Assembly: GCA_022703425.1 (NCBI GenBank)
Contig: JAKLDQ010000006.1
Span: forward strand, 1-36,263
Origin: Patescibacteria group bacterium
Lineage (GTDB): Bacteria > Patescibacteriota > Minisyncoccia > Minisyncoccales > Staskawiczbacteraceae
Reading direction: 5' to 3'
Length of the DNA: 36,263 nt
The position numbers and the translations under genes were made by a program. The notes under the pieces were generated by a model, which worked only from the letters and a program-made list of their open reading frames with translations, searched no databases and was not told the origin of the DNA. This document shows positions 3,872 to 30,278 of this stretch, piece after piece (position 1 is the first letter of the stretch; every line of letters begins with the position of its first letter).

Positions 3872-4223
3872 GGGAGCGTAAGCTTCGACAGGTGTTCTTT
3901 TTAAAAATATGCAAATTCAGTTTTCTAGAACCTGGTTAAACTTCTAGAAAAAACATAATTGCCAATTTATTCAATAGGCAACCAGCATTAGCTTTAGCTT
4001 AATGCTGCATTCTTACTGTTGATTCCTGATAAACAGAAAAAGAGTGTTATATCATCAGGATAGATAATTCTTTTGCTTCAAAGGAATTATTAAAAATTCC
4101 GAAGACCGGATATAAAAATTTTGTTCACCTTCTATTTTATATCTTAAATTCCAAGGTAAACTAAATTTGTAGAAATATTTTTAAAAAACATTTGGACGCG
4201 AGTTCAATCTCGCCGCTTCCACC
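3872..4223 (+). ncRNA. ssrA: tmRNA (transfer-messenger RNA)
   Basis: One-piece tmRNA. The 5' end GGGAGC pairs with GCTTCC (4215-4220), and the T-arm is GCGAG-TTCAATC-CTCGC near 4199-4213. The 3' sequence reads ACCC, so a full CCA is not encoded and must be added. The tag frame is best read from GCC at 3961: ANLFNRQPALALA followed by TAA at 4000-4002, with the expected hydrophobic ALALA end. The stop codon sits in a hairpin (GCATTA with TAATGC). Just before the tag a perfect 10-bp stem (3921-3930 with 3942-3951) takes the place of the first pseudoknot region. Downstream stems include TCCTGAT with ATCAGGA and GATATAAAA with TTTTATATC. The exact first tag residue is inference; the end is clear. 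Confidence 0.95.
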
Positions 4224-4224
4224 C

Positions 4225-5016: not shown

Positions 5017-5367
5017 ATGTCAAGAGTAAAAAGAGGAACAACAGCCAACAAACGCAGAAAAAACATGCTAAAGCATGCGAAGGGTTTTCAGTGGGGAAGA
5101 AAATCCAAATATAAGCTTGCAAAAGACGCACTGAGGCATGCGTGGACTTATGCTTTCAGAGACAGGAAAGCAAAGAAAAGAAGTTTCAGACAGCTTTGGC
5201 AGCTTCAGATTAATTCCCAGGCAAGAGAAAACGGAATAACTTACAGCAGGTTTATACACGCCCTAAAAGAAAACAAAATTGAAATCGACAGAAAGGTCCT
5301 TTCACAGATGGCGAGCAAACATCCGGAAATCTTTAAGAAAATTGTCGAAACAGCTAAAGCAAAATAA
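5017..5367 (+). CDS. rplT: 50S ribosomal protein L20
   Basis: Assembly-initiator protein of the large subunit that binds 23S rRNA early. It has 116 residues, the usual length. The long basic N-terminal helix is clear (MSRVKRGTTANKRRKNMLK, then HAKGFQWGRKSKYKLAK), followed by AWTYAFRDRKAKKRSFRQLW and the globular C-terminal domain (INSQARENGITYSRFIHALK, DRKVLSQMASKHPEIF). It is the last gene of the infC operon, and a strong hairpin terminator starts 11 bases after the stop codon. Confidence 0.97.
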   Translation: MSRVKRGTTANKRRKNMLKHAKGFQWGRKSKYKLAKDALRHAWTYAFRDRKAKKRSFRQLWQLQINSQARENGITYSRFIHALKENKIEIDRKVLSQMASKHPEIFKKIVETAKAK

Positions 5368-27628: not shown

Positions 27629-28972
27629 ATGGAAGAAACAAAAAAACTATTGGGCTCTGTGGCAATTTCTCCAGAAATTATTCAGGAAGTAAAGGACAGC
27701 GTAAAAAATATTTCAGGTTTTGGAGAAAAGATTCAAACCTATATTTCTCAAAGTACAACAAGTCTTTTGGATATTATTTTGTGCGGATCGATTATTTTAG
27801 ATGCTTCCGACATCCACTTAGAACCCCAGGAAGGCGATGCGAGGCTTAGAATAAGACTGGACGGCGTCTTGCAGGACGTTGTTTTTTTTGACCAAAAAAT
27901 CTATCACAGCCTGCTCTCAAGATTGAAACTTCTGTCAAAACTCAAGTTAAACATCACAGACAAGCCACAAGACGGAAGGTTTACAATTGAACTGGAAAAC
28001 CTTTTGATTGAAATAAGAACCTCCAGCCTCCCTGCCGAATACGGAGAGTCTGTGGTTATGAGAATTTTGAACCCAAAGAACCTGATCGGCCTTGACTCGC
28101 TCGGTTTAAGAAAAGATCTTTATAAAATTTTTGAAAAGGAAATAAACAAGCCCAACGGAATGATTATTGTAACGGGACCGACCGGCTCCGGAAAGACCAC
28201 CACCCTTTACGCCTTTTTGATGAAAATACAAAATCCGGAAATAAAAATCATTACAATTGAAGATCCTATTGAGTATCATTTAAAAGGCATTTCGCAAACG
28301 CAGGTCGCTCCGGAAAAAGGATATAATTTTTCTGAAGGGCTGCGTTCGATCGTCAGGCAGGACCCGGATGTCATTCTTGTTGGAGAAATCAGAGACCTAG
28401 AAACATCAAAAATTGCCCTACAGGCAGCGCTTACGGGACATTTGGTACTTTCCACGCTACACACAAACGACGCTGCAGGAACGATTCCCAGGCTTGTGGA
28501 TCTGGGAGTAGACCCCGCATCAATTGCATCTGGCCTTAAAATGGCAATCGCCCAGAGATTGGTAAGAAAAGTATGTAAGAAGTGCTCCTCAAAAGAAAAA
28601 CCCACAACAAAAGAGCTTTCAGATATCAAAAAGGGCCTTAAAAATCTTCCAAAAGAAATTGAGCTTCCTGATTTAGATAAAATAGAAGTTGCAAAAGTAA
28701 ATGAGAAGGGATGCGAAGGATGTAATTTTACCGGATATAAAGGAAGAGAAGGATTATATGAGGCATTTTTGGTTGATAGCGAGATGGAAAAGTTTATTCT
28801 GAAAAATCCTCCTGTTTCTGAAATAAGAGAATTGGCCGTTAAGAAAGGAATGGTAACAATGTATCAGGCAGGATTAATTGATGTTGTTCTCGGAGATACG
28901 ACGTTGGATGAAGTCTTAAGAGTTGTTGAAGAAGACGAGCAGAAAACAGATATATCCGCAGTAGGCACATAA
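27629..28972 (+). CDS. pilB: Type IV pilus/type II secretion assembly ATPase (PilB/GspE family)
   Basis: Hexameric ATPase that powers assembly of a type IV pilus-like fibre at the inner membrane. The 447 residues are short for PilB (about 560); the large N-terminal MshEN domain is missing. Motifs: DASDIHLEPQEGDARLRIRL, arginine-rich RTSSLPAEYGESVVMRIL, Walker A GPTGSGKTTTLYAFL (residues about 182-196), ITIEDPIEYHL (Asp box), Walker B region IVRQDPDVILVGEIRD, the His box TGHLVLSTLHTNDAAG, and the C-terminal zinc site (CKKCSS ... CEGCNFTGYKGREGLYE). All motor motifs are intact. No other pilus gene is in this window, so its partners lie elsewhere. Confidence 0.93.
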   Translation: MEETKKLLGSVAISPEIIQEVKDSVKNISGFGEKIQTYISQSTTSLLDIILCGSIILDASDIHLEPQEGDARLRIRLDGVLQDVVFFDQKIYHSLLSRLKLLSKLKLNITDKPQDGRFTIELENLLIEIRTSSLPAEYGESVVMRILNPKNLIGLDSLGLRKDLYKIFEKEINKPNGMIIVTGPTGSGKTTTLYAFLMKIQNPEIKIITIEDPIEYHLKGISQTQVAPEKGYNFSEGLRSIVRQDPDVILVGEIRDLETSKIALQAALTGHLVLSTLHTNDAAGTIPRLVDLGVDPASIASGLKMAIAQRLVRKVCKKCSSKEKPTTKELSDIKKGLKNLPKEIELPDLDKIEVAKVNEKGCEGCNFTGYKGREGLYEAFLVDSEMEKFILKNPPVSEIRELAVKKGMVTMYQAGLIDVVLGDTTLDEVLRVVEEDEQKTDISAVGT

Positions 28973-28974
28973 TA

Positions 28975-29213
28975 TATAAAAACAAACAAAAACAGCTCCG
29001 GAGTTGGAGGCGTTTTTATGTCTGGGACATAAAGGAAGGTTTGTCTGAGGAATAATCGAGCCGGAGCAAGATTATCCATAATCTGAGACAAGCCCATGTA
29101 AAGCCTCCAACTCCGGAGCTGTTTTTTCAAATTTAAGCTATAATTAAGTCCGAAGCCATTTTCCAGTAATACGGAATTAATAAAAATATAATTTCAGCCA
29201 ATTTCATTCCAAT
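28975..29213 (-). ncRNA. Predicted structured non-coding RNA with 24-bp closing stem
   Basis: On minus, from a consensus promoter with start near 29213. A 5' domain has nested CCATT/AATGG and GGAAT/ATTCC pairs. Then follows a long rod. Its closing stem is 24 perfect pairs (29103-29126 with 28988-29011). The next stem is AGACAAGCC/GGTTTGTCT (29086-29094 with 29038-29046, one G-U), and the terminal stem is GATTAT/ATAATC (29070-29075 with 29052-29057). In the loop region between the first two stems, the 3' strand holds a small hairpin ATGTC-TGG-GACAT (29018-29030). The 3' end runs into TTTTTGTTTGTTTTTATATATT. Closing stem, bubble with a 3'-side hairpin, then terminal stem is the architecture of 6S RNA. 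Identity is inference. Confidence 0.6.
28988..29126. repeat. Perfect 24-bp inverted repeat
   Basis: Arms at 28988-29011 and 29103-29126 are exact reverse complements (core ACAGCTCCGGAG), separated by 91 bases with inner pairing. Flanked by A-run and T-run, so it also ends the pilB transcript on plus. No target duplication is visible around it. Confidence 0.9.
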
Positions 29214-29219
29214 GGTTCT

Positions 29220-29248
29220 ATTATATCACCATATAGGTTTAATGTCAA
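29220..29248 (-). promoter_or_regulatory. Consensus promoter reading away from ruvB into the predicted RNA
   Basis: On minus: perfect TTGACA (29243-29248), a 17-base spacer, perfect TATAAT (29220-29225). This is the closest match to the sigma-70 consensus in the window. No protein gene lies downstream on this strand; only the structured RNA at 28975-29213 does. Confidence 0.85.
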
Positions 29249-29267: not shown

Positions 29268-30278
29268 ATGGCAGCTCCACCGGATAAAAAATTTAAGGAT
29301 GATGAGATATTAGATTCAGCTTTACGCCCGAAAAGCTGGCCGGACTACGTCGGCCAGGAAAATATCAAGGAAAATCTGAGAATCATCATCACAGCCGCAA
29401 AACAAAGAAGTCAATCTCCCGATCATCTTTTGTTCTACGGAAATTCCGGCCTCGGAAAAACAACTCTGGCATATCTTGTAGCGAGCGAAATGGGCAGGGG
29501 GATAAAAATAACATCCGGCCCCGCTCTCGAAAGAGCCGGAGATTTGGCAGCAATCCTTACCAACATGTCAGAGGGAGATGTTCTTTTTTTGGATGAAATC
29601 CACCGGATAAGCAAAACAATAGAAGAATATATTTATCCGGCAATGGAGGAGTATAAGTTAAACCTTATTTTGGGAAAAGGACCGATGGCAAGGACGATGG
29701 AATTGAAACTTCCGCATTTTACAATCATCGGAGCCACTACGAGGCCGGCACTTTTGTCTGCACCTCTAAGAAACAGATTTGGGGCAACATTTCAGTTAAA
29801 TTTCTACAAAAACGAAGACATTGAAAAAATTATCGAGCGCTCTGCCAGAATTTTGGGAATCAAAATCGAACCCGATGCCACAAAGGCAATTGCAGCAAGG
29901 TCCAGATTTACTCCGAGAGTGGCAAACCGCCTTTTAAAAAGAGCAAGGGATTTTGCCCAGGTTGAGGGCAACGGAATTGTTACAAAAGAAATTTCAAATC
30001 GTGCTTTGGATTTTTTGGAAGTTGACCAGATGGGATTGGAACCGGGAGATAGAAAAATTTTATCTGCTTTAATTGAGAAATTTAACGGAGGTCCCGTCGG
30101 GTTACAATCTTTATCAGCGGCAGCAATGGAAGAAGAAGATACAATACTGGACATTTACGAACCATATCTTATGCAGTGCGGATTTATTGAAAGAACGCCA
30201 AGAGGAAGAGTGGCTTCAAAGCTTGCTTATGAACACCTAGGTTTTTATGACAAAAGCGGGCAAAATTCGTTGCTGTAA
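29268..30278 (+). CDS. ruvB: Holliday junction DNA helicase RuvB
   Basis: AAA+ motor that drives branch migration with RuvA. The 336 residues match the family. Motifs: ALRPKSWPDYVGQENIKENL, Walker A FYGNSGLGKTTLAYLVA (NSGLGKT instead of the usual PPGLGKT), TSGPALERAGDLAAILTN, Walker B GDVLFLDEIHRI, sensor I IIGATTRPALLSAPLRNRFG, RFTPRVANRLLKRARDFAQV (sensor II), and the winged-helix C-terminus GGPVGLQSLSAAAMEEEDT, YLMQCGFIERTPRGRVAS. The gene lies apart from ruvA and ruvC. Its terminator doubles as the promoter region of the next gene. Confidence 0.97.
   Translation: MAAPPDKKFKDDEILDSALRPKSWPDYVGQENIKENLRIIITAAKQRSQSPDHLLFYGNSGLGKTTLAYLVASEMGRGIKITSGPALERAGDLAAILTNMSEGDVLFLDEIHRISKTIEEYIYPAMEEYKLNLILGKGPMARTMELKLPHFTIIGATTRPALLSAPLRNRFGATFQLNFYKNEDIEKIIERSARILGIKIEPDATKAIAARSRFTPRVANRLLKRARDFAQVEGNGIVTKEISNRALDFLEVDQMGLEPGDRKILSALIEKFNGGPVGLQSLSAAAMEEEDTILDIYEPYLMQCGFIERTPRGRVASKLAYEHLGFYDKSGQNSLL

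Follow-up and report, generated by a model that had tools for sequence, protein, structure and literature searches.

A conserved structured RNA gene beside pilB in Patescibacteria, distinct from 6S RNA and SRP RNA

The window analysed here is a stretch of 36,263 nucleotides (contig C29, from a genome of 720 kb) of a Patescibacteria group bacterium of the Staskawiczbacteraceae, and it raises the question of what is encoded by a long inverted repeat that lies on the minus strand between a pilB-type ATPase gene (27629-28972, plus strand) and ruvB (29268-30278, plus strand). The first of these genes converges on the 3' end of the repeat and the second diverges from its promoter. The original prediction, made from the sequence alone, described a rod-shaped RNA under a perfect consensus promoter and likened it to 6S RNA. 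Here we ask whether the rod is a gene, on which strand it is read, how widely it is kept and which of the known RNA families, if any, it resembles.

The rod core (28988-29126, minus strand), as delimited by its folding z-score and covariation, consists of three helical parts. A closing stem of 24 bp, P1, pairs 29126-29103 with 29011-28988 and opens on its 5' side into the junction strand J1/2 (29096-29102, minus strand; UUUACAU, then GG), which occupies the position taken by the CACGACAAGCAUGG bulge in a diverged form discussed below. P2 with its apical hairpin spans 29037-29095 on the same strand, where folding joins 29095-29083 to 29049-29037 in the P2 helix proper and 29077-29066 to 29061-29050 in an apical stem closed by a C(UCCG)G cap. 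The small 3'-side hairpin P3 lies at 29015-29033 (minus strand; 29033-29026 paired with 29022-29015), and P1, the P2 arm and P3 are each indicated by both folding and covariation. A T-rich tail extends beyond P1 (28966-28992, minus strand) and presumably serves as an intrinsic terminator. The 24-bp closing stem, the bubble with a 3' hairpin, the second and terminal stems and the T-rich end that had been described beforehand are all borne out by the fold and the sequence. The tetraloop of the tip is of the UNCG type and reads UCCG or UUCG in relatives, with UCAG and UUAG as variants, the P3 loop reads YCCCAGR in the window's family, and the loop letters are very conserved within that family. 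With a minimum free energy of -72.9 kcal/mol against -33.6 ± 3.7 for shuffled sequences (z = -10.5), the rod is about 39 kcal/mol more stable than expected from shuffling; the repeat can fold when read from either strand, so stability alone leaves the strand unfixed.

The minus strand carries a sigma-70-type promoter at 29248-29220, composed of the -35 box TTGACA (29248-29243), a 17-nt spacer and the -10 box TATAAT (29225-29220) with an extended -10 TG. A scan of the whole window returned this site as the sole 12/12 consensus match, which agrees with the claim that it is the window's best promoter. The distance from promoter to rod, estimated originally as about 90 bases, measures about 87 nt and corresponds to a predicted, lineage-specific 5' leader (29128-29214, minus strand), with transcription expected to start at about 29213. 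The window's nearest relative (L002) lacks the long leader, its promoter stopping 13 nt short of the rod, and most other families have the end of the -10 box 0-17 nt ahead of the rod, which marks the window's leader as a local feature. Among 69 rod loci from the order and family, an equivalent promoter matching at least 10 of 12 positions, with TTGACA and a spacer of 16-17, precedes the rod in 67, in a scan covering 110 nt that missed the window's own copy because its leader exceeds that length; the mirrored region on the opposite side of the same 69 loci mostly scores at background (6-8/12). Most of the class rod loci have an equivalent promoter as well. Other members of the family (L003-L008, L014, L020 and L021) also have leaders ahead of the rod, which differ in length, and several of these share a TTTTTACGTAYTA-like stretch. 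The idea that the leader at 29128-29214 is a dispersed repeat was set aside, as no copies were found among the fetched loci. The tmRNA gene of the window (3872-4224, plus strand, 117.5 bits) has a weak promoter-like site upstream, unlike that of the rod.

BLAST searches with the rod region located the element in 34 of 35 family genomes. In the family alignment (A1, 34 sequences), 96% of the pair cells are standard and 30 of the 47 pairs have changed on both sides, above every shuffle (16.5 ± 1.9); these relatives thereby supply the stem covariation that had been proposed as a check. Compensatory changes extend to three of the seven pairs of P3. A second alignment of 65 diverse sequences from about 30 families (A5), which was fitted to a covariance model and hence leans towards the model's structure, shows 93% standard pairs and compensatory change in 43 of the 47, with all 21 modelled P1 pairs changed on both sides. 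When pairs with a G-U majority are left out, the same alignment holds 300 G-U against 64 A-C on the minus strand. On the minus strand the rod is followed by a T-tract in 61 of 69 loci, compared with 25 of 69 on the opposite strand, and it is on the minus strand that the UNCG-type tetraloop forms at the tip. The side of the promoter, the excess of G-U, the side of the T-tract and the UNCG-type tip together assign the rod to the minus strand, and a plus-strand RNA was ruled out by the G-U asymmetry and the promoter side. An open reading frame overlapping the rod (28864-29130, 88 aa, TTG start) was rejected as coding because the frames are not conserved: no frame is open in more than eight of 33 family sequences. 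Rod lengths in the family vary by amounts that are not divisible by three. Judged from these comparisons of sequences, the rod is a real minus-strand RNA gene, far beyond chance.

The gene is by no means confined to the family. When an exact pattern for the rod tip was searched in named genomes, nearly all of the matches fell in Candidatus Staskawiczbacteria (Parcubacteria). A covariance model (R1) detected the rod in 158 of 247 order genomes (100 of 148 genera), as a single copy in most of them; the 89 genomes without a match may represent loss, divergence past the reach of the model or assembly gaps. A broader model (R3) found it in 179 of 384 genomes sampled from the class. In a sample of 380 genomes from the phylum, R3 gave six matches outside the class with E-values of 2e-9 to 7e-4, and four of these have CACGACAAGCAUGG at the 5' side of the P1/P2 junction, a motif absent from the model. 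Of the 380 genomes, 24 contain a pattern derived from this motif (CACGACAAGYAYGG, 40-70 nt, TTCTTG), each of them once, and none contains the reversed pattern. When folded, loci of this kind show P1, then a bulge of 10 invariant letters on one side, then a P2 whose tip is capped in a similar way, and the CACGACAAGCAUGG bulge is invariant over about 20 families. R3 matches nine of the 24 loci in register, and these matches, together with the common architecture, form the basis for homology outside the class; that the CACGACAAGCAUGG loci are a diverged form of the same RNA is a well-supported, though not certain, reading of the sequences. Since sequence, structure and promoter are conserved well beyond the family, an expressed and probably abundant RNA is likely. 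The original claim of an abundant RNA stands as regards a structured gene with a near-consensus promoter that is kept beyond the family, and abundance itself is likely by prediction.

Two individual loci may be mentioned here. One (L121, genome G044) carries two rods about 2.6 kb apart (2501-2640 and 5105-5244), a recent duplication that is rare among the genomes seen. Another, from a member of the window's family (L034, genome G016, at about 1630-1860), has a MITE-like insertion of about 230 bp with terminal inverted repeats AAGGCCTACTACTTAATAATT inside the P2 arm, which could be either a natural knock-out of the rod RNA or a mixed assembly.

Searches against Rfam 15 returned only tmRNA and one tRNA for the window at gathering score, both away from the rod. 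At the rod locus with E<=10 only sub-threshold matches to unrelated families appeared (plant, nematode and other families), which were set aside as chance fits to a long hairpin, and a search of the diverged homologues with E<=0.5 gave none at the rod. The rod family is new in the sense that it lies outside Rfam 15 and is undescribed in the literature searched, whose coverage was partial.

The proposed identity with 6S RNA does not survive closer comparison, the likeness being one of outline only. RF00013 gave no match in the window or elsewhere in the window's own genome at gathering score, nor at the rod locus with E<=10, so the covariance search suggested at the outset left the rod without a match. 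Elsewhere in the order, RF00013 gave full-length matches of 42.7 and 42.4 bits, under the cut-off of 46.4, one of these sub-threshold loci belonging to a member of the window's family whose genome has the rod as well. A Parcubacterial 6S model built from eight such sub-threshold loci matched 29 of 38 relatives; the window's own genome is among them, with 81.6 bits. The 6S RNA of this genome lies outside the window (L094, G000:C1:45697-45831); its core is of the form GGGAGCC...GGCACCCAC and reads GGGAGCCC...GGGCACCCAC. An exact pattern for the 6S core had no match in the same genome, though the relative-derived model found the 6S RNA there. These scores indicate that a Parcubacterial 6S RNA exists just under the Rfam threshold and is likely under-annotated. 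The core GGGAG(CC)...(GG)CACCCAC is absent from the rod alignment, and the rod lacks the wide central opening, unpaired on either side, that marks 6S RNA: its 5' strand measures 7-10 nt only in the window's family, and over the 65 diverse sequences of the order it ranges from 0 to 10 nt with a median of 3. A promoter-like opening of the 6S type is hence not conserved in the rod, and the suggestion that the bubble mimics an open promoter falls with the shortness of this strand, which would be the template.

Some bacteria possess two 6S RNAs, and the rod might be a second, diverged one that binds RNA polymerase by open-promoter mimicry. Such an RNA would account for the shared outline of closing stem, junction with 3' hairpin and terminal arm, for the similar length and strong promoter and for the 5' junction strand retained in the window's family; it is nevertheless decidedly unlikely, as both the own genome and many relatives have a separate RNA with the 6S core, the rod itself gives no 6S score, and the 0-3 nt left of the 5' bubble strand in about 40 of the 65 diverse sequences provide no template bubble. 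The signal recognition particle offers another candidate, because its components appear to be missing in these bacteria. A search for SRP RNA (RF00169) at E<=10 was negative in all 28 relatives examined and positive in 13 of 14 controls, and the Ffh M domain (PF02978) was missing from all 12 relatives tested but present in all 14 controls. This agrees with the absence of ffh and ffs in Parcubacteria reported in 2015 and explained by a YidC with an extended C-terminus (PMC4508563). The rod itself has no RF00169 match (in the window at gathering score, at the locus with E<=10), and with Ffh absent in the tested relatives an identity with SRP RNA was ruled out. It is also highly improbable that a widespread and single-copy rod represents a diverged SRP RNA or a functional stand-in where SRP is missing, considering that the lack of Ffh leaves it no known partner, that it has no SRP family match and that the literature accounts for the loss otherwise.

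Genomic neighbourhood bears on whether the rod acts in cis, as a two-way terminator or an antisense transcript that separates or tunes pilB and ruvB. A convergent pilB lies at the rod 3' side in all 69 order and family loci and all 38 class loci, its stop codon being mostly within 50 nt of the rod (107 loci), and a divergent ruvB lies upstream in 43 of the 69 and 35 of the 38. This constancy and the ability of the stem to fold on the plus strand as well speak for a cis element; however, a terminator has no use for covarying and conserved internal arms and loops, the T-tract that a pilB intrinsic terminator needs is not conserved on the pilB strand, where 25 of 69 loci have one compared with 61 on the rod strand, and the diverged homologues outside the class lie in other surroundings, frequently beside clpP and a VanW-like gene and on either strand (L236-L239, L249-L263). 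An explanation as a pilB terminator only, with the promoter absent in relatives, is at odds with the presence of the promoter in nearly all of them. On this evidence a purely cis element is unlikely, and the rod stem may end pilB transcripts in some species. A regulatory RNA that pairs through its loops (P3 YCCCAGR, or the junction) with mRNAs or rRNA is quite unlikely: the strongly conserved loop letters of the family and the invariant 10-nt bulge of the diverged form would suit it, but the loops differ among the family, order and phylum forms and helices lock up most of the rod. A Shine-Dalgarno or anti-Shine-Dalgarno role for the GGAGG/CCUCC of P1 was ruled out, since most of the order has GGGGG/CCCCC. 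As for an inverted-repeat mobile element or a chance palindrome, the MITE-like insertion within the L034 copy is the one point in its favour, and the probability is negligible, the distribution already contradicting it through low copy number, a position constant across the class and compensatory changes throughout.

That the gene keeps its place within one class and lies elsewhere in others favours a trans-acting RNA, and its movement with the junction retained fits both trans action and protein binding. On balance we therefore lean towards the rod being a constitutive, single-copy, trans-acting structural RNA, probably the core of a ribonucleoprotein, of an uncatalogued housekeeping type. 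RNA polymerase would initiate at the near-consensus promoter, at about 29213, transcribe the rod of about 140 nt and terminate intrinsically at the P1 stem and U-tract. The RNA would fold into the long closing stem P1, the junction, the P2 arm with its UNCG-type cap and, in this class, P3. It may then act in trans, forming the structural core of a ribonucleoprotein in which one or more proteins presumably bind at the conserved junction between P1 and P2 and at the internal loop of P2 (UAG..GGA / UCCUC), and would operate neither by templating RNA nor by base-pairing of P1. The pilB-side position kept throughout the class tells against this reading, as a purely trans-acting gene has no need of it, and a cis role at pilB within the class is conceivable.

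The rod RNA probably has a basic, undescribed cellular role. More tentatively, it could be a new housekeeping ribonucleoprotein RNA ancestral to much of the Patescibacteria, whose invariant junction motif, CACGACAAGCAUGG in several classes, binds either a protein of its own or some large machine (ribosome, RNA polymerase or export apparatus) and on which the reduced, host-dependent way of life relies. The Patescibacteria account for a large share of the diversity of bacteria; they mostly live on other microbes, and their genomes hold very few genes. A small RNA that many of them have retained, under a strong promoter and with a strict structure, is likely to serve a basic function. It would have been missed so far because RNA catalogues rest mainly on cultured bacteria; current annotation overlooks both the Parcubacterial 6S RNA and the rod RNA. 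The rod offers a concrete locus, strand, fold and promoter for testing.

Among known systems, 6S RNA (RF00013, SsrS) comes closest in layout, being an RNA of 130-190 nt with a strong promoter, closing stem, terminal arm and 3'-side junction hairpin, whereas the rod has neither a sequence or model match nor a conserved open bubble and shares its genome with a separate 6S RNA. Bacterial SRP RNA (RF00169, 4.5S) is likewise rod-like and single-copy with a housekeeping-like distribution; however, the rod has an UNCG-type cap in place of the GGAA loop with the AGCAG motif, does not match the model and occurs in relatives that, where tested, have no Ffh. The raiA motif (ModT; PMC11706538) is similarly a conserved, structured, stand-alone bacterial RNA found first by comparative genomics, although the rod has no Rfam match to any such orphan family. 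Intrinsic, including bidirectional, terminators share with the rod a G+C-rich stem at a gene end and T's on the rod strand, but the rod is set apart from them by a structured, covarying insert of about 90 nt, by its own promoter and by forming one family throughout the class.
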